From contig CAUYTW010000144.1 of NCBI GenBank assembly GCA_963575715.1, positions 1 through 35,131 of the forward strand: 35,131 nt of DNA, in the 5' to 3' direction. Within the stretch, counting starts at the first letter, position 1. Each line of letters begins with the position of its first letter. Origin of the DNA: Gammaproteobacteria bacterium (GTDB taxonomy: Bacteria > Pseudomonadota > Gammaproteobacteria > CAIRSR01). Made by a program: the position numbers and the translations under genes. The notes under the pieces are model-generated. The model was not told where the DNA came from, ran no database searches, and was given only the letters and a program-made list of their open reading frames with translations. Below are positions 5,069-17,421 of the stretch, piece by piece.

Positions 5069-7294
5069 TTACGCCGCCATGGTGATGGTGGTACGCCCCG
5101 CAGCTTGCTGAATTAGCGCTGGGATGTCCAAAATCAATGCCACCTCGCCGCTGCCTAGTATGGTTGCCCCACTGATGCCAGAGAGACGCCGAAATATCTC
5201 TCCCAGGGGTTTGATCACGGTTTGAAACTCACCTAAAAGCTGATCCACCACCAGGCCCGCCTTGCGCCCACCGTATTGGACAACCACGACACTTTGGCGA
5301 ATCTCCGCTCCGTGCGCCTCACTGGTGGCAAAAGCTCGACTTAACCATAATAACGGCAATACTTCGCCACGTAGATTAAGATACCCTCGCCCATGCTGGG
5401 TATCGCTAAAGTCCAGGCACTCAACCACCATGTCTAGGGGCGCGACGTAGAACGCGCCAGCGATGCCGACCAGGAAACCATCGATAATGGCAAGTGTTAG
5501 CGGTAGCCGCACGCGAATTATCGTTCCCACACCTTTTTCGCTCTCGACTTCGATGGTGCCACGGAGTCCATCCACCACGCGGCGTACTACGTCCATGCCC
5601 ACGCCTCGTCCTGACATATCGGTTACCTTTGATGCCGTAGTCAGTCCCGGCTCAAAGATGAACTGAAAAATCTCGGCGTCTGTGGGTTTGGCATCATGAC
5701 TCACCAACCCAGCCTGAATCGCCTTAGCAAGAACCCGATCACTATCAATTCCTTTGCCATCATCGGCAACTTCAATGACGATGCTACCCGAATCGTGATA
5801 GGCATTGAGAGAGAGCATTCCATGAAGGGGCTTGCCGAGCGCGATACGTTCACTGGGACGCTCAATGCCATGGTCAAGACTATTACGCACAAGATGGGTT
5901 AAGGGATCGGCGAGGCGTTCCACCATCGCTTTGTCCAATTCAGTATCAGCGCCATTTACTTCCAGTTTCACTTCTTTGTCCAAATCTCGGGCTATATCGC
6001 GGATCACGCGTTGAAAACGCGAAAAAGTCTCCCCAATTTGGACCATACGCAGACGCAAGGCTACTTCGCGGATTTCTTCCACCAGACGCGATAACGCCGA
6101 AGAAGACTCCATCAAAGCAGCATCGCCCAAACGCTTGGCCATTAGCGCTTGACTCGCGCCGACAACCACTAGTTCACCCACTAAATCGATAAGCCGATCC
6201 AGCTTGGCGGCATCGACACGCACATTGCGCGCCGTGGCTGCAACTTGATCGCGGCGGTTTTGTTGATGATGCAATGCTGCTTCCACCAGCTCGGGTGCAG
6301 CCATGGAATTCTCAACCATGACCTCGCCCATGCGTGGTGGAGTGCCTTCGATGTGTCCTCGTTTAGCCTGGCAACGGAGAGCCTCCTCCAATTCGTAGGT
6401 GGTGAGGGCACCGGTCTTCACCAGCATCTCTCCCAACCGTAGCGTATCGCCATTGGCCATTTCTTCCAGTGTTTGTAGATACTCGCTGATTTTCGCCATG
6501 GGTGGGAGAATCCGAATACTGATTTCATCACGCATGAATTGAAAAGCATCTGCAATTGCCTGTTTGGTCGCTGAAGTCTTGAGGTCTACTTCCAAACCCA
6601 AATAGCACAGCTCAGGGTCGAAAGCATCGGGTTCGGGCAAGAAGTCCCAGATCGCGGTCGCGCTCACAATTTCCCCCTGCGTGGCGAGATAGCGCAGACA
6701 TGACAATGGATCCAGGCCATGACGCAGCACATTAGGCCCGAAACGTACCGATAGATGCCAAGCGTCATTCACAACACAATTTTCATCACGTTCCAGATTG
6801 GCAGCAGCTTCCACCGGAAGCGTCGCTGTTGCTTCTGTTTTAGTTACATCACCTTTAGCAGGAGCGGTGGGAAGTATTTCGGTAACGGATGGCTTTAAGT
6901 AGATATTAAGCTGATTTTTTAGATTCTGTTCCGTGTTGGCGAATTCCATGCCGATGCCGGTATCATTTCCTTTCATGGCCATTTCCACTAATATTCCAAG
7001 GTGGTCCTTGCAATTTAACAGTAACTCCATCAAAGTACGATTAACAACTACTTCACGATTGCGCAGCCGGTCCAACACGCTTTCCACAATGTGAGAAAAA
7101 TTCACCACCGGATCAAATCCAAATATTCCTGCCCCCCCCTTGATGGTATGTACAGTACGGAATAACGCATTAAGAGTTTCCTCATCCTGGGGCCGTTCTT
7201 CAAGAATCAGTAAAGTTTCTTCCATTTGAGCGAGCAATTCAGTGCTTTCACTAAAAAACGTTTGAATCGCCTGCTCCAGGTTCAGTGTATTCAT
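5069..7294 (-). CDS. cheA: Chemotaxis histidine kinase CheA with an extra central domain
   Basis: A 741-residue CheA, which autophosphorylates and passes phosphate to CheY and CheB. Domains in order: an Hpt domain with the phosphorylated histidine in TVHTIKGGAG (His 49); a region near 179-263 like the response-regulator binding domain; two short repeats near 286-345 of the form LGEMLVKTGALTTYELEEAL and MGEVMVENSMAAPELVEAAL; the dimerisation domain from about 359 (VDAAKLDRLIDLVGEL); the ATPase with N box HLVRNSLDHGIE, DDGKGID and SGRGVGMDVV; and a CheW-like C-terminus. The start is the second of two adjacent ATGs: it is six bases after GGAG, as in the other leader copies, and a GTG at 7315 would lie inside the leader hairpin. 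Preceded by the STAS gene, followed by cheD. Confidence 0.93.
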   Translation of the reverse strand: MNTLNLEQAIQTFFSESTELLAQMEETLLILEERPQDEETLNALFRTVHTIKGGAGIFGFDPVVNFSHIVESVLDRLRNREVVVNRTLMELLLNCKDHLGILVEMAMKGNDTGIGMEFANTEQNLKNQLNIYLKPSVTEILPTAPAKGDVTKTEATATLPVEAAANLERDENCVVNDAWHLSVRFGPNVLRHGLDPLSCLRYLATQGEIVSATAIWDFLPEPDAFDPELCYLGLEVDLKTSATKQAIADAFQFMRDEISIRILPPMAKISEYLQTLEEMANGDTLRLGEMLVKTGALTTYELEEALRCQAKRGHIEGTPPRMGEVMVENSMAAPELVEAALHHQQNRRDQVAATARNVRVDAAKLDRLIDLVGELVVVGASQALMAKRLGDAALMESSSALSRLVEEIREVALRLRMVQIGETFSRFQRVIRDIARDLDKEVKLEVNGADTELDKAMVERLADPLTHLVRNSLDHGIERPSERIALGKPLHGMLSLNAYHDSGSIVIEVADDGKGIDSDRVLAKAIQAGLVSHDAKPTDAEIFQFIFEPGLTTASKVTDMSGRGVGMDVVRRVVDGLRGTIEVESEKGVGTIIRVRLPLTLAIIDGFLVGIAGAFYVAPLDMVVECLDFSDTQHGRGYLNLRGEVLPLLWLSRAFATSEAHGAEIRQSVVVVQYGGRKAGLVVDQLLGEFQTVIKPLGEIFRRLSGISGATILGSGEVALILDIPALIQQAAGRTTITMAA

Positions 7295-7425
7295 CATTGT
7301 CTCCGAGATACCCACTGGCTTTAGCAGTGGGGAGGAAAGGAGACGGTTTTAGCGGGAAAAACCGTCAGTTAAAAAAGCCGGTCTTTCCCGACTGTCAGCC
7401 CTTACGAGCTTGATGACACGAGTCT
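7292..7425 (-). promoter_or_regulatory. Hairpin leader element HL-1 (cheA leader)
   Basis: Read on the minus strand, this leader has three hairpins: GTCGG/CCGGC around GAAAGA, GACGGTTTT/AAAACCGTC (7366-7342), and a compound stem in which GUCUCC (7344-7339) pairs with GGAGAC (7304-7299) around the inner CCCACTG/CAGTGGG hairpin (7331-7311). GGAGAC is also the cheA ribosome binding site, so the outer stem would hide it. The 3' arm of the second hairpin shares its last three bases (GUC) with the outer stem, so the two pairings compete. The stop codon of the STAS gene lies within the element. Confidence 0.8.
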
Positions 7426-7754
7426 TGCGACCCGGTTCCTTCTGGGGGAAGCACTTCGGTGGTGCCAAACCAGCTCAACAGTCCATAAAGACCGAGCGTT
7501 TCCCGTACCGCGACGCTCATTCCCGCGATACGCAATGCCACCTGCCGACGAATCGATTCACGATGCAACAGTAGCAGCAACTGTACCCCGCTCGTATCCA
7601 GATCAGATACGCCAGAAAGGTTTAATACTAATTCTCGACTATTCGCCAGCGGCTCTAATAATGGAGCCTTGAGCGCCATCGCGGTATAAATATTCATTTC
7701 TTGTTCAATCTGGAGGGTACAGCGACGTCCCTGCCAGTGGGTATTGATGCTCAT
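7395..7754 (-). CDS. STAS-domain protein (anti-sigma factor antagonist type)
   Basis: A 119-residue single STAS domain, similar to SpoIIAA-type antagonists. The motif SGVSDLDTSGVQLLLLLHRE carries Ser 55 at the position that is phosphorylated in the family. These proteins switch partners by serine phosphorylation; the kinase and phosphatase are not visible here, although a Ser/Thr kinase is encoded in the same run at 9301-11589. Single STAS proteins next to cheA occur in many chemotaxis operons. The ATG is part of a leader element and sits six bases after GGAG. The last dozen residues (GSQDSCHQARKG) are encoded within the next leader element and are probably not part of the fold. Confidence 0.85.
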   Translation of the reverse strand: MSINTHWQGRRCTLQIEQEMNIYTAMALKAPLLEPLANSRELVLNLSGVSDLDTSGVQLLLLLHRESIRRQVALRIAGMSVAVRETLGLYGLLSWFGTTEVLPPEGTGSQDSCHQARKG

Positions 7755-7830
7755 CAGTATCTCCGAAAAACTACAGCCTTCAGGGCGTTGAGGCAGGATT
7801 GGAGACGATTTTAGAAATAACCGTCACGGA
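7752..7830 (-). promoter_or_regulatory. Hairpin leader element HL-2 (STAS gene leader)
   Basis: A shorter copy. GUCUCC (7806-7801) can pair with GGAGAU (7764-7759, with one G-U pair), and upstream GACGGTT/AATCGTC forms a second stem with a G-U pair. GGAGAUACUGAUG supplies the ribosome binding site and start codon of the STAS gene. The inner hairpin is CCT-containing and less regular than in HL-1. Confidence 0.7.
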
Positions 7831-7841
7831 ACACACAACGT

Positions 7842-8504
7842 TCAATTATCCTGGCTATCAGCTCGTAGGGTTGGCCAGGCGGCACGCAAATAGACCATCA
7901 TTGACCACAAAGTCAGGAAAACCGCCAGGTAGAGCAACACCAATCCCAGATCCCAAATCGCAATGCCAAGAATAGGCTCATGATAGAGAAGCAAAACCAG
8001 GGAAATCATTTGCATGGCGGTTTTGAATTTACCGATGCCCGAAACCTTGACCCTGGTTCGCTCTCCTATTCCTGCCATCCACTCACGCAAGGCAGAAATA
8101 GTAATCTCTCTACCGATAATAACGGCGGCAGGCACCGCAACAAACGGGGTGGGGTGATATTCGAGGATAAGCACCAACGCCACGGCCACCATGAGTTTAT
8201 CGGCCACCGGGTCGAGAAAGGCACCGAAAGCTGATACCTGAGCCAAACGCCGAGCCAGGTAACCATCTAGCCAGTCAGTAAGCGCTCCCAGGGTAAATAG
8301 CGCGGATCCAAGGGCATGGGCCTTGGGAAATGGCAAATAATAGACAACCATCAACGCAGGAATAAAGGCGATTCTTATCCATGTCAAAATAATTGGAATA
8401 TTAACCTTGGCACGCATGGTAGACGGTAATCGGGGTTGAATGGCGAACCCTGGCTGTTTCCGTGGTGGCGATATAGTCGTCATCGTAATCACACTTGGTT
8501 CCAC
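7842..8504 (-). CDS. pgsA: CDP-diacylglycerol-glycerol-3-phosphate 3-phosphatidyltransferase
   Basis: A 220-residue membrane enzyme that makes phosphatidylglycerolphosphate, the committed step to phosphatidylglycerol and cardiolipin. The CDP-alcohol phosphotransferase signature is complete: DWLDGYLARRLAQVSAFGAFLDPVADK, seen here as DGYLAR, then G eight residues on, and the two aspartates of FLDPVADK. The first half has NIPIILTWIRIAFIP, the usual N-terminus. Several hydrophobic segments span the inner membrane. The chosen start is a GTG with AAGG about eight bases upstream; in-frame ATGs at 8483 and 8417 are alternatives, and the last would give 191 residues, closer to the usual 180-190. It lies among chemotaxis genes with no evident link to them. 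Confidence 0.92.
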   Translation of the reverse strand: MEPSVITMTTISPPRKQPGFAIQPRLPSTMRAKVNIPIILTWIRIAFIPALMVVYYLPFPKAHALGSALFTLGALTDWLDGYLARRLAQVSAFGAFLDPVADKLMVAVALVLILEYHPTPFVAVPAAVIIGREITISALREWMAGIGERTRVKVSGIGKFKTAMQMISLVLLLYHEPILGIAIWDLGLVLLYLAVFLTLWSMMVYLRAAWPTLRADSQDN

Positions 8505-8779
8505 ACGTTCAACCTTTTGGCATTAGTTACCAACGATTAACTTCCTTATTTATCGCGGCGTTGGTTTTTTATTTTCCGACTTGTCGGACACAGACAGTGA
8601 TCAAGATTTTCGGTAGCTTGACAATTTCTTCCATGCACATAAAAGATACGAAATAACGATCAACCGCATTCTGGCTAATTAGGAATACCGCCCGGAATTC
8701 GTGACCAACGCACTTTAATTGTGCTTAATCCTGGCAACCAGAACAAATTACCCGTGCGAAAATAACTGGCAACCACACG
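8505..8779. other. Intergenic region, nothing recognised
   Basis: Between pgsA and the tnpB relic. There is a short TTCCGACTTGTCGGA hairpin near 8573-8587. I see no gene or clear promoter. Confidence 0.4.
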
Positions 8780-9117
8780 CTAGTATATTTGAAAACGAAT
8801 CACTTGCGCGGATTGCCATTTTTTGTACTTGGGATGTTTTGCAAAAGAATTAGCGAAGGCTTTATCCAGATCGGCAATACTTGCGACAAAACGGTGGCCG
8901 GGACTTTCGTCAACCAGGAATACCTCTCCAATTTTTCAGTCAGGTCAATTCTTAGTGAAAAATCCACACCAATAACACGCTCGTCGATCTCTTGATAGAG
9001 GAAGAAGCGCCAGAAAAGGCACGCATTCCAAACCCAGCGGGCGGCACCGAAAAATTGAGCCAGCAGGAGAAGTTGAATGGCAGCTGGATAAAATCGCAGA
9101 CGATAAGAGCATTCCAT
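8780..9117 (-). pseudogene. tnpB: Truncated and frameshifted tnpB (IS200/IS605 family) relic
   Basis: The first reading frame gives YRLRFYP, LAQFFGAARWVWNACLF and LTEKLERYSWLTKVPATVLSQ, the N-terminal layout of TnpB. Near 8875-8880 the frame shifts by one or two bases, after which the next frame continues ADLDKAFANSFAKHPKYKKW and QVIRFQ, again typical of TnpB. It then stops at 8780. Only about 110 of the usual 350-400 residues remain, so the RuvC nuclease and zinc finger are gone. No tnpA is nearby. TnpB is an RNA-guided nuclease encoded in IS200/IS605 elements. The relic shows that such elements were once active in this genome, which may have left some of the hairpin repeats. Confidence 0.8.
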
Positions 9118-9300
9118 AGCGTTATTTTAACATGCAGTGCCGGTATTGCGATGGCGTTACCGAAATACGGGTACCCGATGCAGCGCGCACCATACGGAAC
9201 GGACGCGGCGGACAATCACCAATATCTGCCCCGAAATCCTCTACTCCGCTACGCAACCGGACGAGGGGTGTCCCTGTCTCGCTGCGATGAACAGGACTTA

Positions 9301-11589
9301 TCATCCCGCGATCAACCGTTGCCACCGCTGGCGCCAATCTTCCTTTACTGGACGAATGAACCACGAGACAGGAATTGTCAAAGATCCCCCATTGGTGTTC
9401 AGAATCATCGTCACGCGCTGAGTACCAACATGGTTATCTAGCGGCTTCAAGGTCAGAGCCAATTTCACCAGGTTACCATCGAAAGCGTAACGATCCAGAG
9501 TCAACCCCCGATCCAGCTCAAGCAGCCGGGCGTTACCGTAAAGATAGCCACGACCGGTATTACGAATCGTTAGGGTTCGCGTGCGTACCATACCCGGAGA
9601 CATCACTCCAAAATTTATGCTATTGGGTTCAGTCACGGGTCGGGGATCCTGTAAAGATGAATCAAGGATATGGAGCACTTCCTCAAGTTTGGCTTCCCAG
9701 GATAAATCAGGAGCAAGTAAGGCATGATCCAGAGGAGTAGGATCGAGTAACCGTCTGGATCCCACCAACCAGGCACGAATCCAGCCTTCCTCAAGCAACA
9801 TTCGTCCGAGTCGGGTATCCTCCGGGGAGCGATCCACCAGCCGCGCCAGTGCTGCGGGTTCAATCACCACAACACCTCGAAATGAAAAGGGCAGCGTCGG
9901 ACAATGGGACCAAAATAAATAGCGGGTTCCCAAAGTTGGCGTTGCTCCGTAGCGGTAGCGCAAATCCCGCACCAAATCGAGTTCCTGCTTCCAACCCGGA
10001 GGCGAGGCAGCACGGAGCCATTCTTCGTAACGTCCATCATAGAGTGGACCGGCACAGGCCACGCTGGCCTCGACGACCCCCAGGCGTGCGACTAAGGCAC
10101 ACCATCCGCCGGGGCGATCCATTCGTACTCCGCCGATCTCCAGGCCGCGTGTTGGATCTAGATTTCTCAGTAGGGCAAAGGCGATCAGTCCGCGTGGGCT
10201 GCCGCGACCAAGCCGTCGCCGCAACTCCCGTAGCCGCTCCAACAGTTCAGGAGTGCGTTCGCCCGCTTTTCTTCCGATTTCGACCCAGGCATCAAGCGAT
10301 TCATCAAGGAAACTGCGTTCCAGAGCATCCTGAAGATCTTGCTCTCTCTCGCTACGCGTTAGTAATACTACTAATTGCCGGAGGTCATAGGCTTGCCATG
10401 TATCCGCCTGAGTTTCCTGCGTATGAGTCAATGAGCGTAGCACCAGGGGTGCGCCGGGATCGAGGAGATAACGCAGCCGGATCACCGCACGCCTGGGGCG
10501 CGTGGCGTATTCCTTTTCCAGGTTTTCAATGCGGTCGGCAAGCGTCGCATCTCCCTGGTCAAAGACCCAGCGGCGAATGTCACCACGGAGTAAGTGGTGA
10601 GCGGCATCAAAAAAATCCAGGGCGGCGGCGAGTTCGCGTGGGATACAGGCTGCTGGCCAACCTGGATAAGGTCGCCGCACACCATTTTCCCCAATGATTA
10701 CTGGTAATAACGGTTCTTCGCCGCGCAGCCATGCCTGAACCTCAGCATAGCCCCAGCGTAGCGTCGGATTATGAATCGTGAGGCCCCGTGCCAGGTGGGC
10801 CAGTGCTGGAGGTAGTCCATCCGGTAGGGAAAGCCGTCCGCGTAAATGAGCGACCAGAATGTCATTGGGTGAGCAGCCCTGGAACGGCGAGTAACCAAGA
10901 AAGGCATGAAGCACGGTAATCCCGAGACTGTAATAATCGCTCTTAGGCCCAACTTCATGGTGGTCAAGCAACTCAGGGGCGGCGAAATCCAGGGTCAGGC
11001 GATCCGCTGAGGTAGTGACCCGCGCTGTGTCACCTAGATCCAGGTAGGAACTGATGCCGAAATCCCCAATCAGCAATTCGTGCCGCGCGGCATCACGAAA
11101 GAACAAATTGGTTGGTTTGATATCGCGGTGGATGATGCCCTGACGGTGACAATATTCTAGGCCCTCGATCACTCCTTCCAAATAGCAGCGCAGGTCTTGC
11201 TCTGGAAGGGGCATGACATTGGCTAGGGTTCCGCCAGCGCAGTATTCCGCAACCTCGTAGAAACGTTCCCTCCATTGGCCAATAGTCAGCAGGCAAAGAA
11301 CATGAGGATGGCGCACACCCTGAAGCTGCGCGATTACTTCCTCCTTTGGACGCGCCTGACAGCGGTAAATCTTTACGGCCACTTCCGTTGCACTGTGTTC
11401 GTCATGGCAGCGAAAAACTTCCGCCTCGCCGCTGATGCTTCCCAATGGCCCTTCCAGCACCCGATAGCGATCTGCGACCAACATTCCGCCCTGGGAAACG
11501 TGGTCATTGGATGAAATTGAAATAGTAGACGGATAACGCGCAGTTACCGCTGCTCCCTCGTGCGAATAGCGGAGGGTGACCGGCGTCAT
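9301..11589 (-). CDS. Large Ser/Thr protein kinase with C-terminal beta-sandwich, in the flagellar gene run
   Basis: A 762-residue protein. The kinase domain spans about residues 41-290 and looks active: a glycine-rich loop region at 47-57, Lys 73 in VAVKIY, HRDIKPTN with Asp 156, DFG at 176-178 and AAPE at 203-206. Residues 300-660 have no domain I can name and hold no membrane segment. The last 100 residues (INFGVMSPGMVRTRTLTIRN...) look like an immunoglobulin-type beta-sandwich. The protein is therefore cytoplasmic. It lies 139 bases after fliH on the same strand, where gammaproteobacteria usually have fliI. Targets are unknown; flagellar proteins or the STAS protein at 7395 are possible. 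The ATG is given by GGAGACACTGATG (11599-11587), the same start motif as in the leader elements. Confidence 0.85.
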   Translation of the reverse strand: MTPVTLRYSHEGAAVTARYPSTISISSNDHVSQGGMLVADRYRVLEGPLGSISGEAEVFRCHDEHSATEVAVKIYRCQARPKEEVIAQLQGVRHPHVLCLLTIGQWRERFYEVAEYCAGGTLANVMPLPEQDLRCYLEGVIEGLEYCHRQGIIHRDIKPTNLFFRDAARHELLIGDFGISSYLDLGDTARVTTSADRLTLDFAAPELLDHHEVGPKSDYYSLGITVLHAFLGYSPFQGCSPNDILVAHLRGRLSLPDGLPPALAHLARGLTIHNPTLRWGYAEVQAWLRGEEPLLPVIIGENGVRRPYPGWPAACIPRELAAALDFFDAAHHLLRGDIRRWVFDQGDATLADRIENLEKEYATRPRRAVIRLRYLLDPGAPLVLRSLTHTQETQADTWQAYDLRQLVVLLTRSEREQDLQDALERSFLDESLDAWVEIGRKAGERTPELLERLRELRRRLGRGSPRGLIAFALLRNLDPTRGLEIGGVRMDRPGGWCALVARLGVVEASVACAGPLYDGRYEEWLRAASPPGWKQELDLVRDLRYRYGATPTLGTRYLFWSHCPTLPFSFRGVVVIEPAALARLVDRSPEDTRLGRMLLEEGWIRAWLVGSRRLLDPTPLDHALLAPDLSWEAKLEEVLHILDSSLQDPRPVTEPNSINFGVMSPGMVRTRTLTIRNTGRGYLYGNARLLELDRGLTLDRYAFDGNLVKLALTLKPLDNHVGTQRVTMILNTNGGSLTIPVSWFIRPVKEDWRQRWQRLIAG

Positions 11590-11728: not shown

Positions 11729-12832
11729 TCAAAAACCCCTAGATCCCGCAGGGTCGAAAAATTCTTGACTGTCTTCCTTTCCCAGCAAACGAGCAACGAC
11801 ACGATTAATACGGTGTTCAACGGTGGCATCAATCTGGGAAGTATCGGTTTCCACCCGACAGCCACCCCGGGTGATGGTGGCGTCTTCCTCAATGCGTATT
11901 TCGTTCGTACCCTCTTTTTTTCCCAGCGCGACTCGTACCAATGGAACATCATCAGGATGGAGAAAGATGCGTAAATTACGCCGTGCGGTGGGCAGGCTCG
12001 CCAGAGCCTCACGCACCACTGGAATGATTTCACCAGCACCAATCCGTAATTCACGACGCACAATTTGACGCGCTACCGCCACGACTAAGGCGACGAGTTG
12101 TTCCTCGACTTCGGAATCCAGATTCGCCAAAGGTTGATCCAGCAGTGTCAGAAATTGGCCTAATTGGTTAAGCTTGGCTTGTACCTCAGCGTCGCCCTTG
12201 GCCAAACCATCGCGCCGACCTTCCTCGACTCCTTGCGCCAAACCATCGCGCCGACCTTCCTCGATCCCTTGCGCCAAACCATCGCGCCGACCTTCTTCGA
12301 TTCCTTGCGCCAAACCATCGCGCTTGCCGTCCTTAAATCCTTGATCCAAACCAGTACGCCGCCCTTCTTCGATCCCCTGGGCCAGGCCATCGCGTTGGCC
12401 TTGTTCTATCCCCTGCTCCATTCCTTGCTCGATTCCTTGCTTGATTCCCGTTGTCGTCCCTTCCTCGATCCCTTGCTTGAACCCTTCTTCATGACCTTTG
12501 ATTAATCCCTCACGATAGCCTTCCTCTATTCCCTTGGTTATCCCTTCTTGGCGACCACGTTCAAAACCTTCTGCATATGCCTCGCGTGAGATGGTTTCGA
12601 TTGCGTCCACGGTTGGCAGCTTGGCAGCAGGATCAGGCCGCGCCACCGTTTCTTTCTTGCGTCCAGGCTGAATAATCGATTGGGGCTGGGATAACGGCAA
12701 AGCTGTGGCCGGGACAAAAGCTGGTTGCGGTTCTGGAACCTGAGAAGAGGGCCAGAAAGAATCATCCATGACCGGAGGTTTCCAGCGACGGAGGGTCGTG
12801 TCCAGTTCTTCTTTAGCGATCACCCTAGACAT
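11729..12832 (-). CDS. fliH: Flagellar export apparatus protein FliH with expanded glycine repeats
   Basis: A 367-residue FliH, which binds the export ATPase FliI and links it to the rotor and export gate. The N-terminal 80 residues are proline- and glutamine-rich. Residues about 84-206 form a run of G-x-x-x-G repeats (EGFERGRQEGITKG...), known for FliH but far longer here than in E. coli. The repeats end in 12-residue units (GIEEGRRDGLAQ) from a 36-base tandem array. The folded C-terminal part (LVVAVARQIVRRELRIG...) is the FliH/YscL domain. The first ATG overlaps the end of fliG by eight bases, which suggests coupled translation. The partner ATPase FliI is not in this window; the next gene is a protein kinase. 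Confidence 0.9.
   Translation of the reverse strand: MSRVIAKEELDTTLRRWKPPVMDDSFWPSSQVPEPQPAFVPATALPLSQPQSIIQPGRKKETVARPDPAAKLPTVDAIETISREAYAEGFERGRQEGITKGIEEGYREGLIKGHEEGFKQGIEEGTTTGIKQGIEQGMEQGIEQGQRDGLAQGIEEGRRTGLDQGFKDGKRDGLAQGIEEGRRDGLAQGIEEGRRDGLAQGVEEGRRDGLAKGDAEVQAKLNQLGQFLTLLDQPLANLDSEVEEQLVALVVAVARQIVRRELRIGAGEIIPVVREALASLPTARRNLRIFLHPDDVPLVRVALGKKEGTNEIRIEEDATITRGGCRVETDTSQIDATVEHRINRVVARLLGKEDSQEFFDPAGSRGF
12195..12420 (-). repeat. 36-base tandem repeat in fliH
   Basis: About six consecutive 36-base units, each coding 12 residues of the type GIEEGRRDGLAQ. Read on the plus strand, the first three units (starting near 12200) share GCCAAACCATCGCGCCGACC exactly and differ by only a few bases in the rest, showing recent copying; the last three have diverged. 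It is coding sequence and not a CRISPR array, since there are no spacers. Confidence 0.85.
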
Positions 12833-13856
12833 ACTGTTCAGAACCTCCGCTCAGGCTGATTTCACCAGCATCGGCCATGCGCCTGGCTATCGATAAAATT
12901 TCCTTCTGGGCAACTTCTACCTCGGAGATTTTGACCGGTCCCTTGGAATCCAGATCATCCTTAAGCATTTCGGCGGCACGCTTAGACATATTTTTGAAAA
13001 ATTTCTCCTTCATGGCCTCATCGGAACCTTTGATGGCAAGCAACAGGGTTTCTGAGGGAACCTCGCGCAACAATGCCTGGATACCACGATCCTCGACATC
13101 CAGCAGATTCTCGAAGACAAACATGAGATCCTGAATACGTGAGGCCATTTCTGAATCGACCTCGTGAATATTTTCCATAATTTGCGACTCCATGGTCGAG
13201 TCTAAGAAATTAAGAATGCTGGCCGTAGTCTTGATTCCACCAAGACCGGAGGATTTAACTGCGGTCTTACCACTAAATTGTCTCTCCATAATGTCGTTGA
13301 GTTCCTGAAGAGCAATTGGATTAATCCCTTCAAGGGTGGCGATACGCAATAAAATATCAGGACGAACTCGTTCAGGAAGAATAGAAAGTACCTCAGCTGC
13401 CTGGTCGGGTTCCAGATAAGCCAGGACAATTGCAATAATTTGTGGATGTTCGAGGCGAATGACATCAGCCACGGCGCGCGGCTCCATCCATTTCAATGTA
13501 TCCAGGCCCTTGGTGCTGGCTCCCAACAAAATGAGATCGAGGATATTCTTTGCCTTTTCTTCGCCAACCGCCTTGACAATTACGTTACGGATATAACTAT
13601 CCGAATTTACCCCGAGTGCGGTTTGATCTTGTGCGCTGTTGACAAAATCACTTAACACGCTTTGAACCGTTTCCCGAGAAACATGGGGCACACTCGCCAT
13701 GGCAATACCTACTTTCTGGACCTCCTTTGGCCCTAGACCACGCATGACCACTGCGGCATCATCTTCTCCCAGGGCGAGGAGAAGAATTGCAGCCCGCTCA
13801 ACCCCGGAGAGTGCTTTGGATGTTGGAGCCAGGGCAATATCGGTTGATTCAGTCAT
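12825..13856 (-). CDS. fliG: Flagellar rotor/switch protein FliG
   Basis: A 343-residue FliG of normal length. FliG forms the rotor ring between the MS ring (FliF) and FliM, and its C-terminal domain receives torque from the stator. Three domains can be followed: the N-terminal FliF-binding domain (SGVERAAILLLALGEDDAAVVMRGL), the middle domain with RLEHPQIIAIVLAYL at about residue 134 (the EHPQ motif that binds FliM), and the C-terminal domain ending EVEVAQKEILSIARRMADAGEI. The ATG overlaps the stop of a 13-residue upstream reading frame (ATGA), which suggests translational coupling. The end overlaps fliH. Confidence 0.95.
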   Translation of the reverse strand: MTESTDIALAPTSKALSGVERAAILLLALGEDDAAVVMRGLGPKEVQKVGIAMASVPHVSRETVQSVLSDFVNSAQDQTALGVNSDSYIRNVIVKAVGEEKAKNILDLILLGASTKGLDTLKWMEPRAVADVIRLEHPQIIAIVLAYLEPDQAAEVLSILPERVRPDILLRIATLEGINPIALQELNDIMERQFSGKTAVKSSGLGGIKTTASILNFLDSTMESQIMENIHEVDSEMASRIQDLMFVFENLLDVEDRGIQALLREVPSETLLLAIKGSDEAMKEKFFKNMSKRAAEMLKDDLDSKGPVKISEVEVAQKEILSIARRMADAGEISLSGGSEQYV

Positions 13857-13894
13857 CCAGCATTTGCGGCGCGGAAACCTCTGGCTTCAGCCAT
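13853..13894 (-). CDS. Upstream reading frame MAEARGFRAANAG before fliG
   Basis: A 13-codon frame within the leader element. GGAGGA lies 15 bases upstream of its ATG, though GGAGGA is paired to UCCUCC in the local hairpin. The stop TGA overlaps the fliG ATG as ATGA. The same start and first nine residues (MAEARGFRA) are coded in the leader of motB at 32884, where the frame stays open into motB. Shared peptide sequence may simply reflect the repeat's DNA; there is no proof that it is translated. Confidence 0.4.
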   Translation of the reverse strand: MAEARGFRAANAG

Positions 13895-13983
13895 GGGGAG
13901 GAAGCGCCGTCCTCCTTAATTTTTTGACGTTGAAGTGAACAGTTGTTGGTCTTTCACGGCGGTAGCCAGGCCTAGTGACGGAA
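13854..13983 (-). promoter_or_regulatory. Hairpin leader element HL-3 (fliG leader)
   Basis: The second subtype of the family. The outer stem CGGCGC (13909-13904) with GCGCCG (13872-13867) encloses the inner TGGC/GCCA hairpin (13893-13882). A competing hairpin pairs GGAGGA (13915-13910) with UCCUCC (13902-13897) and uses CGGCGC as its loop, so both cannot form at once. GAAAGACC and a block like GCCTAGTGACGG (13981 region) match the 5' parts of HL-1, HL-5 and HL-6. It fills the gap between the disordered-protein gene and fliG. Confidence 0.75.
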
Positions 13984-14012
13984 AAAACTGTTGGCTTTTA
14001 CCGTGGGATGAT

Positions 14013-14810
14013 TTATGGACTATTTACCCACAAATTGAGTAAATCGGAGGCTACTTTTGGTTCTTCCTTAATTAGATAACGAATATATTTCATGTATAAA
14101 TTATACTCTGGAGATGGTTCTTCCTTTTTTAAGTTTGGAAAAATATCGGCAATTTTATTTTTTGCAAGAGCAGCATTTTTGCCATCATTAGAATTTTCCG
14201 TCGTGACGGATGAAGTGACTGGTGAAATTGCATTTCGAGAGGCATTTTCCAACGAGCCGCCAGGTAAAATGGTTTTTTCAGTGCCTTCATCCAGCGCAGC
14301 AGGTTTAGGTAAGGAAGAATCATGTCCTGGTGGCGGAAGAGCAGCAATTTCTGTTTTATTAGGGTCTGAGGATGATTTTATTGTAGCAATTTCAGTTTTA
14401 TTATTCTTTTCCTGGGCAATTATTGTTGCAGAAGCAGCCATTTTTTCATTTTCCGCTGTTGTGCCGGATTTCTGAGAAACAGCAGTAACTGATTTTAGCT
14501 TTTCATTCGCTGACAATGGCTTTACTTTGGGCGCGGATGGGTTCAATCTTTCGGTTTTAGACAATAATCGTTGTGGAGCAATAGCAGCCATTTGATTAGA
14601 CAAGCCACTATCTCCTCTTCTGTTTGGAGAAACTCCAAACGGATTATTTTTTTCCGTCCTGGAAACTTGATTAGTTGAAAAAAAAGAACTTGTTTTGTTG
14701 CTTGCCGTCTTGGCGTTCAACTTTTCAGGAATTGAATTTCCGGAAGAAAACAAGTCTGTTTTTTTTTCGGGCGCAATAACCGATTTTTTTTGCTCGTGCA
14801 TAATCATCAA
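14013..14810 (-). CDS. Disordered protein with a FliF-like FliG-binding tail
   Basis: A 265-residue protein placed between fliF and fliG. Residues 1-230 are rich in Ser, Thr, Asn, Lys and Ala with no membrane segment and no recognisable fold, so this part is probably disordered; a short repeat NKTEIA occurs twice near residues 137-155. The last 23 residues contain IRYLIKEEPKVASDLLNLWV (243-262), which matches IRYLIREEPKMVSEILKDWI at 660-679 of FliF in this window. In FliF that C-terminal segment is the one that binds the N-terminal domain of FliG. The DNA is also similar here (14052-14084 compared with 14958-14990), so it probably arose by copying the end of fliF. I infer that it binds FliG. 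It is not a gene I can name. Confidence 0.8.
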   Translation of the reverse strand: MMIMHEQKKSVIAPEKKTDLFSSGNSIPEKLNAKTASNKTSSFFSTNQVSRTEKNNPFGVSPNRRGDSGLSNQMAAIAPQRLLSKTERLNPSAPKVKPLSANEKLKSVTAVSQKSGTTAENEKMAASATIIAQEKNNKTEIATIKSSSDPNKTEIAALPPPGHDSSLPKPAALDEGTEKTILPGGSLENASRNAISPVTSSVTTENSNDGKNAALAKNKIADIFPNLKKEEPSPEYNLYMKYIRYLIKEEPKVASDLLNLWVNSP

Positions 14811-14876: not shown

Positions 14877-16967
14877 TTAAGCCCCTTTCTTGGCGTTTGG
14901 ATTGTTCTTGTGATTTGGATTATCGGAAAGGATCCAGTCCTTGAGGATCTCGGATACCATTTTTGGTTCTTCCCTGATTAAGTACCGAATATGCTCTAGG
15001 GAGTCATCGTAATCATTTTTCTTATTAACTAGCCACGGTGGAAGCTCCGACTCATGACTGGGCGATGAGAGCGTCAAGTGATCTTCTGGTGGCCGTCCGC
15101 TTTCTTCTTCTGCGCCTTCCCCAGCGGGTCTGAGTTCACGGGTATCATATTCTTCTTCCTCTTCTTCTTCCTCATCGTCTTCTTCTCCATCCTGTTTTGC
15201 TGCTTTTTTCGCTTCTGTCCCTGAGTGTTCCAGGCCCGATGCCTCATCTGACGACGCATTCTCGGCTGACGAAGTTTTTTGCAGTGCTTCCAGTTCTTTT
15301 GCTTTTTCCTGCCTGGATTCTTCTTCCAATTCCAGATCTTCCTCGCCGATCATGTGGCGCATTACTGGGCGCACCACACCTAGGATTATTACCAGGATTA
15401 GCAGAGCTGCGAGTCCTTGTCGAAATAGCTCAATAGCCCAAGGTTGACGCCACAAGGGCAGCTCTTCAGTAGCCGAAGGTTCTTTTTCGAAATCGGGCAT
15501 GAAGGCCAAATTCACCACGCTGATGGCATCGCCACGCTGTGCGTCATAGCCCACCGCCTCGCGCACTAAGGCGCGAATACGTTCCATTTCTTCAGGAGAA
15601 CGAGATATTCGCAGGGGTGGATTAGTCCCGGGGCGAAAAGCATCATCAACTGCCACGGCAGCACTGATCCGACGTATTTGTCCAATCGGGCTGCGTGTAT
15701 GACTAATGGTGCGATCTACTTCGTAATTACGAGTCGCATGACGTTTGTTGGTAACTAAGCCGCCTGTTCCTATGCCTTGGGTGGCGACATTGCCTTTGCC
15801 GGCATCCGGTGGAGCACCTCCATTATTGAGCGCCTCGGGGACGGTCCCGGCTGCGGGCGGTTGGTTGGATAACGCCCCCGGAATACCCATCTCGTTTACT
15901 CCACGGCTTTGCTCATCTACGGTTTGTTCACTACGAAGCGATGGCTGGTCAGGATTGTAAACCTCACGGGTCTGCTCGGTATCACTGAAATCCATATCAA
16001 CGGTAACCTGGGCACGGATACCATTTATCCCCGCCAGCGGGGCGAGCATGTGTTCGATGCGTCTAATATAGGAATCTTCCACCCGATGAACGTGCTCAAA
16101 CTGCGCCTTGGTCAGGTCCATTTCCCGGGAAAAACTATCCTGTCGTGTCAACAATTCACCAGTTTGGTCGACCACAGTGACTCGGTTCGGTTCCAGTTGA
16201 GGAATGCTAGAAGCCACCAAGTGGACAATGGCTTCAACCTGGTTGCGATCTAAGTAACGCCCTGGGTGCATTTGTAGCATTACTGAAGCGCTGGGCTTTT
16301 CGCGGTCGCGCACAAATACCGATGGACGAGGGAGCGCAAGATGAACGCGAGCACTCTGGACGGCTGCCATGGTAAGAATGGAGTGAGCCAGTTCCCCCTC
16401 CAGAGCGCGTTGATAACGCGCTCCCTCCATGAATTGACTGGTGCCAAACGGAGATTGGTTATCAAGAATTTCAAAGCCACCTATCGGAGGAGTCTTGGGC
16501 AGACCCATGCCAGCAAGCCGAATACGTGTTGCATGAATTTCGCCCGCAGGCACAGTGAGGGCACCAGTAATGGGATCGATACGATAAGGAATATTATTTT
16601 TTTGCAGAGCTTCCACAATCTGAGCGGTATCGGTTTCCGCGAGTCCGCCGAAAAGAATTTGGTAGGGAGGCGGTTCCTTCCGCGACCACAGAATGATCAC
16701 GACAATAAAAGCCACGGCAGCGGCCAGACCCACCATCACGCCAACCTGATGCAGGCTAGGGAGCGCATTGAAACGTTCCAGGAAACGCGCCGCCAAAGGC
16801 AAACGGTTCGTCAACGTTTCAGAAATCATGCCAGGAACCATTGCAGTGCCCGCACTCCCGGGGGTATTTCCCGGTTGGATCGTGCTTGCGGAAATGGCTG
16901 TACCCGGTGTGGCTCCATTGCCGGCCAGACTGGTTCCCGCACGGTTGGTAAGTTCAGTGGCGGCCAT
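14877..16967 (-). CDS. fliF: Flagellar MS-ring protein FliF
   Basis: A 696-residue FliF, longer than E. coli FliF (552) because of an N-terminal Gly/Thr-rich stretch of about 60 residues and a long acidic linker near the C-terminus. Two membrane segments frame the periplasmic ring domains: VGVMVGLAAAVAFIVVIILW near residues 77-96 and ALLILVIILGVV near 535. Family motifs include YQILFGGLAETDTAQIVEAL, LPRPSVFVRDREKPSASVML and the conserved VTVDMDFSDTEQTREVYNP. After the second membrane segment the cytoplasmic tail holds EEDDEEEEEEEEYD and ends with the FliG-binding helix (660-679). It follows fliE by 25 bases and precedes the disordered-protein gene by 66. Confidence 0.95.
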   Translation of the reverse strand: MAATELTNRAGTSLAGNGATPGTAISASTIQPGNTPGSAGTAMVPGMISETLTNRLPLAARFLERFNALPSLHQVGVMVGLAAAVAFIVVIILWSRKEPPPYQILFGGLAETDTAQIVEALQKNNIPYRIDPITGALTVPAGEIHATRIRLAGMGLPKTPPIGGFEILDNQSPFGTSQFMEGARYQRALEGELAHSILTMAAVQSARVHLALPRPSVFVRDREKPSASVMLQMHPGRYLDRNQVEAIVHLVASSIPQLEPNRVTVVDQTGELLTRQDSFSREMDLTKAQFEHVHRVEDSYIRRIEHMLAPLAGINGIRAQVTVDMDFSDTEQTREVYNPDQPSLRSEQTVDEQSRGVNEMGIPGALSNQPPAAGTVPEALNNGGAPPDAGKGNVATQGIGTGGLVTNKRHATRNYEVDRTISHTRSPIGQIRRISAAVAVDDAFRPGTNPPLRISRSPEEMERIRALVREAVGYDAQRGDAISVVNLAFMPDFEKEPSATEELPLWRQPWAIELFRQGLAALLILVIILGVVRPVMRHMIGEEDLELEEESRQEKAKELEALQKTSSAENASSDEASGLEHSGTEAKKAAKQDGEEDDEEEEEEEEYDTRELRPAGEGAEEESGRPPEDHLTLSSPSHESELPPWLVNKKNDYDDSLEHIRYLIREEPKMVSEILKDWILSDNPNHKNNPNAKKGA

Positions 16968-16992: not shown

Positions 16993-17325
16993 TTACACTT
17001 GCATGCTCATAATTTCTTGGTAGGCACTCACAAGCTTGTTGCGTACCTGAGTCATGGCCTGGAAAGAAATGTTCGCCTTTTGGCCAGCCACCATCACTTC
17101 GGGAAGATCGACACCAACCGCTCCGCGTTCAAAATCGGCAGAAAGCTTGGCAGAGTTTTGTTGAAGTTGATTGACCGCATCAATGGATTGGCGTAACAGA
17201 CTGGAAAAATTAGGAGGAGCAACCTCCGGTATAGGGGGAGCCGCCGGAGTCGGGGCACGACCCTGGGCCAGGGTCGCAGCGGCACGCATTTGTACAAGCA
17301 AGCCGTTGATATCGGTAGTATTCAT
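16993..17325 (-). CDS. fliE: Flagellar hook-basal body protein FliE
   Basis: A 110-residue FliE, which joins the MS ring to the rod. The C-terminal half is typical: FSSLLRQSIDAVNQLQ, then VDLPEVMVAGQKANISFQAMTQVRNKLVSAYQEIM, seen here as DLPEVMVA, KANISFQAMTQVRNK and YQEIM. I chose the ATG at 17325 because GGAG lies eight bases upstream; a TTG at 17346 is in frame but poorer. It is the first gene of the fliEFGH run and has a sigma-54-type promoter upstream, as in other gammaproteobacteria where FleQ activates fliE. Confidence 0.93.
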   Translation of the reverse strand: MNTTDINGLLVQMRAAATLAQGRAPTPAAPPIPEVAPPNFSSLLRQSIDAVNQLQQNSAKLSADFERGAVGVDLPEVMVAGQKANISFQAMTQVRNKLVSAYQEIMSMQV

Positions 17326-17421
17326 CGGATCGCGCTCCGTATTCAATAATATTGAAAGTATTACAATACCAAAAGGACGCGCTTACGCGTGTTAGCGAAA
17401 TGGTCGCGTTTACGACCTTAT

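Follow-up and report, generated by a model that had tools for sequence, protein, structure and literature searches.

Gene arrangement at the fliF-fliG junction

The window, i.e. the whole analysed stretch of 35,131 nucleotides from a gammaproteobacterial genome, contains a flagellar gene cluster in the order fliE-fliF-orphan-fliG-fliH. The orphan is an open reading frame for a disordered protein, which the earlier note had placed between fliF and fliG at positions 14013-14810 of the minus strand and which was indeed found there. It comprises 265 residues when read from a TTG codon and 262 residues when read from the ATG at position 14801. The ATG is the likely start, because the resulting N-terminus MHEQKK... 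is in register with those of the relatives (MSDQKK..., MPDPKK..., MFFRKK...). The coordinates of all features are listed in Table 1.

Table 1. Positions of the orphan genes and of neighbouring features. Entries with the prefix L refer to loci of related genomes, all others to the window.
Feature	Position	Strand	Remarks
fliE	16993..17346	-	start of the local flagellar cluster
fliF	14877..16967	-	696 aa; sole FliF of the window's genome
Acidic cytoplasmic linker of FliF	15009..15359	-	117 aa, net charge -26; between second transmembrane helix and tail
FliG-docking tail of FliF	14919..15017	-	profile match, E 7.7e-19
Orphan gene (fliF-fliG slot)	14013..14801	-	likely CDS beginning with ATG; longer ORF begins with TTG at 14810
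FliF-type FliG-docking tail of orphan	14016..14111	-	PEYNLYMKYIRYLIKEEPKVASDLLNLWVNSP; profile match, outgroup HMM, shuffles, AF2 helix-kink-helix
Orphan-fliG spacer	13857..14012	-	156 nt
fliG	12825..13856	-	sole FliG of the window's genome; presumed partner of orphan
FliG_N domain in fliG	13509-13811	-
fliH	11729..12832	-	downstream of fliG
Orphan of G001	L050:9861-10715		284 aa; tail LEHLRHLLKTEPKVITELLKHWI
Orphan of G002	L051:9822-10226	minus	134 aa; tail VAYLRKLIQEDPKLIASLLKKWI
Orphan of G003	L052:3493-4005	minus	170 aa; tail TDYLRQLIKDDPKLLSSIIKNWI

The spacer RNA that precedes fliG has no unusually stable fold (z -1). Directly before fliG lies a 13-codon leader frame (MAEARGFRAANAG; 13853-13920, minus strand), whose TGA overlaps the fliG ATG; it comes with a strong AAGGAGG ribosome site, which forms a small hairpin by pairing with CCTCC. 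No such leader was seen in the relatives. The FliH protein of the window contains a run of near-identical repeats (GLAQGIEEGRRD), which also matches Yae1_N. In the region downstream of fliH (5069-11589, minus strand), no fliI or fliJ follows, whereas G002 appears to have them at this place; encoded here are a 762-aa Ser/Thr kinase, a phosphatidyltransferase, a STAS protein, a CheA-like kinase, and CheD.

Conservation within the family and absence elsewhere

The family was sampled with four genomes of two genera: the window's genome (G000) and G001 belong to one genus, G002 and G003 to the other. All four code for a disordered, basic protein of 134-284 residues with a FliF-type tail in the slot between fliF and fliG. 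The stop codon of the orphan gene overlaps the start of fliG by 8 bp in G001 and G002 and by 4 bp in G003; in the window's genome this overlap has been lost and a gap of 156 nt is found instead. In G001, fliF and the orphan gene are separated by an inserted gene for an HD-domain protein (HD_5; L050:8427-9473).

According to the earlier note, a gene decayed or absent in all related genomes would be a mere duplication remnant. It is kept in four of four genomes, in the same slot and with an intact tail; judged from this comparison, the orphan is not a product of local decay. Furthermore, FliF, FliG and FlhA are present as single copies in each family genome, along with an FlhF and flagellins, and it is therefore likely that the members have a working flagellum. 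As the first three proteins occur only once per genome, the N-terminal domain of FliG (FliG_N) is the only evident candidate partner of the orphan tail.

At the fliF-fliG junctions of about 100 other Gammaproteobacteria (relatives and 78 named genome loci), no orphan gene was found: the two genes are separated by a few tens of bases or overlap, and one junction outside the family measures about 120 nt. A tail profile was run on genomes of the class (369) and of the phylum (398), with matches listed to E 1.5e-5 and E <= 1e-4, respectively. Outside the family, the matches listed comprised FliF-length frames, three stubs and one broken FliF, and nothing else. The short tail-bearing frames outside the family are stubs at contig starts (G093:C14, G066:C154, G724:C6) and the broken FliF of G044. 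The latter appears to be split, with its N-terminal half at a contig edge (L048 = G044:C13) and its C-terminal half inside G044:C7:1-906. Within this sample, the orphan gene thus appears to be restricted to one family. In a phrase search of open-access papers, no description of a gene between fliF and fliG was found, and no known family was found for the protein. The orphan is real and conserved, an accessory protein that has apparently not been described before.

The C-terminus of the orphan is a FliF-type tail

The agreement of 12 out of 20 residues that the earlier note had claimed for the last helices of the orphan and of FliF could be reproduced. In a 23-residue core, 12 of 23 amino acids and 46 of 69 nucleotides are identical between the orphan tail and the FliF tail of the same genome. 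The ungapped BLOSUM62 score of the two cores is 76, and the best score among 20,000 shuffles of the ORF is 42. The orphan tail matches the tail profile with E 2.4e-14, a value to be read with the fact that this profile itself includes the orphan tail. An HMM was derived exclusively from 35 FliF tails of lineages outside the family and applied to all 990 ORFs of the four family loci. The four FliF proteins and the four orphans took the first eight ranks; two of the orphan tails had weak scores of 4.8 and 3.7 bits (E>1). A PDB search with the single tail sequence yielded chance helical matches only; with the tail profile, Vibrio-type FliF entries were found. Thus the FliG-docking tail, a feature of FliF, is present in the orphan by sequence, and on these comparisons it is a genuine FliF-type tail.

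The similarity at the DNA level, which had also been claimed, holds for the window's genome. It does not indicate a fresh duplication, because it is old: besides the 46 of 69 positions given above, only 36-41 of 69 nucleotides are identical between orphan and FliF tails within the other three genomes. For the pooled orphan tails, pS is 0.74, i.e. silent sites are near saturation, and pN is 0.33; the pooled FliF tails have a pS of 0.91 and a pN of 0.10. Given the resulting pN/pS ratios of 0.45 versus 0.11, the orphan tail is, by this measure, under purifying selection and evolves faster than the FliF tail. The fast drift and the loss of the fliG overlap in the window's genome would be compatible with a non-functional leftover of a duplicated fliF 3' end. 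We regard such a remnant as highly improbable, as an open frame of 134-284 codons and the tail have been kept in four genomes whose silent sites are nearly saturated.

The chain preceding the tail

The four orphans are free of hydrophobic segments, their composition is of the disordered type, and their net charge is +8 to +20. With regard to secretion through the flagellar export gate, the observation was confined to the disordered N-terminus. None contains a transmembrane helix, of which FliF has two (the highest mean hydropathy over 19 residues is 0.13-0.49), and none has a significant match of any kind in Pfam, NCBIfam, or PHROG, the periplasmic ring-building domains PF01514 and PF08345 of the FliF family (YscJ_FliF / TIGR00206) included. 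Nor was there a family match to the features of FlhF, namely the SRP-type GTPase domain and the FliG-interaction domain (FID). Outside the tail, the chains cannot be reliably aligned across genera.

The FliF linkers of the window's genus are 117 and 101 residues long with net charges of -26 and -30, which makes them the longest and most acidic of those compared; those of the other genus are unremarkable (64 and 59 residues, -12 and -9). The two genomes with the unusually long linkers are also those whose orphans are longest, and we suggest that the basic orphan chain might pair with the acidic linker. Such packing would suit a standing rotor component that permanently fills FliG_N sites devoid of a FliF tail, allowing FliG to outnumber FliF in the C ring, so that the FliF-mimicking helix sets the FliF:FliG stoichiometry or fills the symmetry mismatch between MS and C ring. 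The orphan drifts outside its tail but preserves the tail itself, and FliF and FliG may depart from a 1:1 ratio: 33:34 has been proposed for Salmonella (PMC11087270). However, Salmonella needs no filler, and the link between charge and length is drawn from four genomes of two genera; we consider this role unlikely.

The motif [SN][KR][TVI]E occurs four and five times in the two orphans of the window's genus, compared to 0.05-0.09 copies expected; in the G001 orphan, the copies are spaced at multiples of 17 residues. Together with the conserved MxxxKK start shared by the N-termini across genomes, these repeats could argue for a tether, in which the disordered chain would bring a further factor to FliG, e.g. 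a polar, export or regulatory protein. There is a precedent for the tethering of FliG in FlhF (PMC11236974), which is encoded in all four family genomes. The motif is, however, missing in both orphans of the other genus (G002, G003), and the chain is otherwise not conserved in sequence. A tethering function would accordingly rank among the less probable roles.

Structure prediction

In the window's genome, the orphan, the spacer and FliG_N share one reading frame, which allowed for their folding by AF2 as a read-through chain. The input alignment consisted of FliG_N relatives; a longer second chain also carried the FliF tail in a competition design. An alignment that included tail fragments was dropped, because the fragments were misplaced onto FliG. 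All helices formed in both read-through chains, and both tails were predicted as two helices with a kink, as seen for the FliF tail in solved complexes. The mean pLDDT was about 80 for the orphan tail and somewhat lower for the FliF tail; the pTM values of the chains were low (0.33 and 0.40). Structural matches to the modelled FliG_N were 5tdy, 5wuj and C-ring structures of Salmonella; these alignments spanned FliG_N only, and the output contained no contacts.

Proposed role of the orphan in FliG assembly

Co-folding of the FliF tail with FliG_N is established (PMC6079021), and complexes of the two have been solved (PDB 5tdy, 5wuj). In V. cholerae, FliG is reduced when FliF is missing, i.e. 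its stability depends on FliF (PMC7064773). An additional FliF-type tail thus has an obvious client. By homology to these FliF tails, the orphan tail probably binds FliG_N in the pocket of the FliF tail.

Three known systems come closest. With the C-terminal tail of FliF (5tdy, 5wuj), the orphan shares the helix-kink-helix, the P...W[IV] core and the position directly before fliG; in contrast to FliF, it has neither ring-building domains nor transmembrane segments, and its chain is disordered and basic, whereas the FliF linker is anchored and acidic. The FlhF FID resembles it in that a separate protein holds and stabilises FliG before C-ring assembly. However, the FID lies at the N-terminus of FlhF as a small folded domain, has FliG MC as its main target and leaves FliF binding free (PMC11236974), whereas the orphan carries a FliF-like helix at its C-terminus and a true FlhF is encoded elsewhere in each family genome. 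SwrB from Bacillus subtilis is likewise a lineage-specific accessory factor at the FliF/FliG assembly step; it is a membrane protein, requires FliF, acts without FliG or FliM, and has no reported FliF-like tail (PMC4526659). What is new is that a soluble, disordered chain carries an already known docking helix.

The earlier note had offered competition with FliF, holding of FliG, capping of rotor sites, and tethering as possible functions. Among these, we favour holding with subsequent hand-over, or capping, on the grounds of the translational coupling to fliG and the apparently weaker, faster-evolving tail. The orphan would be a soluble, intrinsically disordered accessory protein whose C-terminal helix pair, a paralogue of the FliF tail, docks into FliG_N. 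It would be made immediately before FliG, coupled to it in three of four genomes, such that nascent FliG_N could co-fold with the orphan, either ahead of FliF or in parallel with it. In this way FliG may be stabilised and prevented from forming rings too early or at the wrong site, until the MS ring takes it over through its FliF tails; FliG sites left unfilled may stay capped by the orphan. A FliG holdase with hand-over to FliF gives the best fit to synthesis just before FliG, to the coupling, and to a tail apparently weaker than that of FliF. Several points stand against it: the weak outgroup-HMM scores of two orphan tails, the loss of the fliG overlap in the window's genome, the other flagellated Gammaproteobacteria examined, which manage without an orphan, and the AF2 chains, which had low pTM and gave no readable docking. 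We therefore propose the holdase function tentatively, at slightly less than even probability.

The same binding helix as in FliF would also allow the orphan to act as a competitor that titrates FliG from FliF, thus limiting the number of flagella or delaying the checkpoint between MS ring and rotor; in polar flagellates, the FliF-FliG complex is such a checkpoint, which is sensed by flagellar two-component systems (PMC7064773). Coupled expression with its own target in one cluster would, however, be a poor design for a brake, and no promoter-like site of the orphan's own was found in the window. This makes a competitor very unlikely.

Implications for rotor assembly

Through the joint of FliF tail and FliG_N, the torque of the motor reaches the rod, and the same joint serves as a template for the assembly of the rotor. 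If one lineage keeps a second copy of this joint by selection, and in free form, this would offer a natural handle on the control of FliG mis-assembly. Furthermore, the orphan bears on the question of whether the ratio of FliF to FliG must be 1:1, a point where current ring structures disagree.
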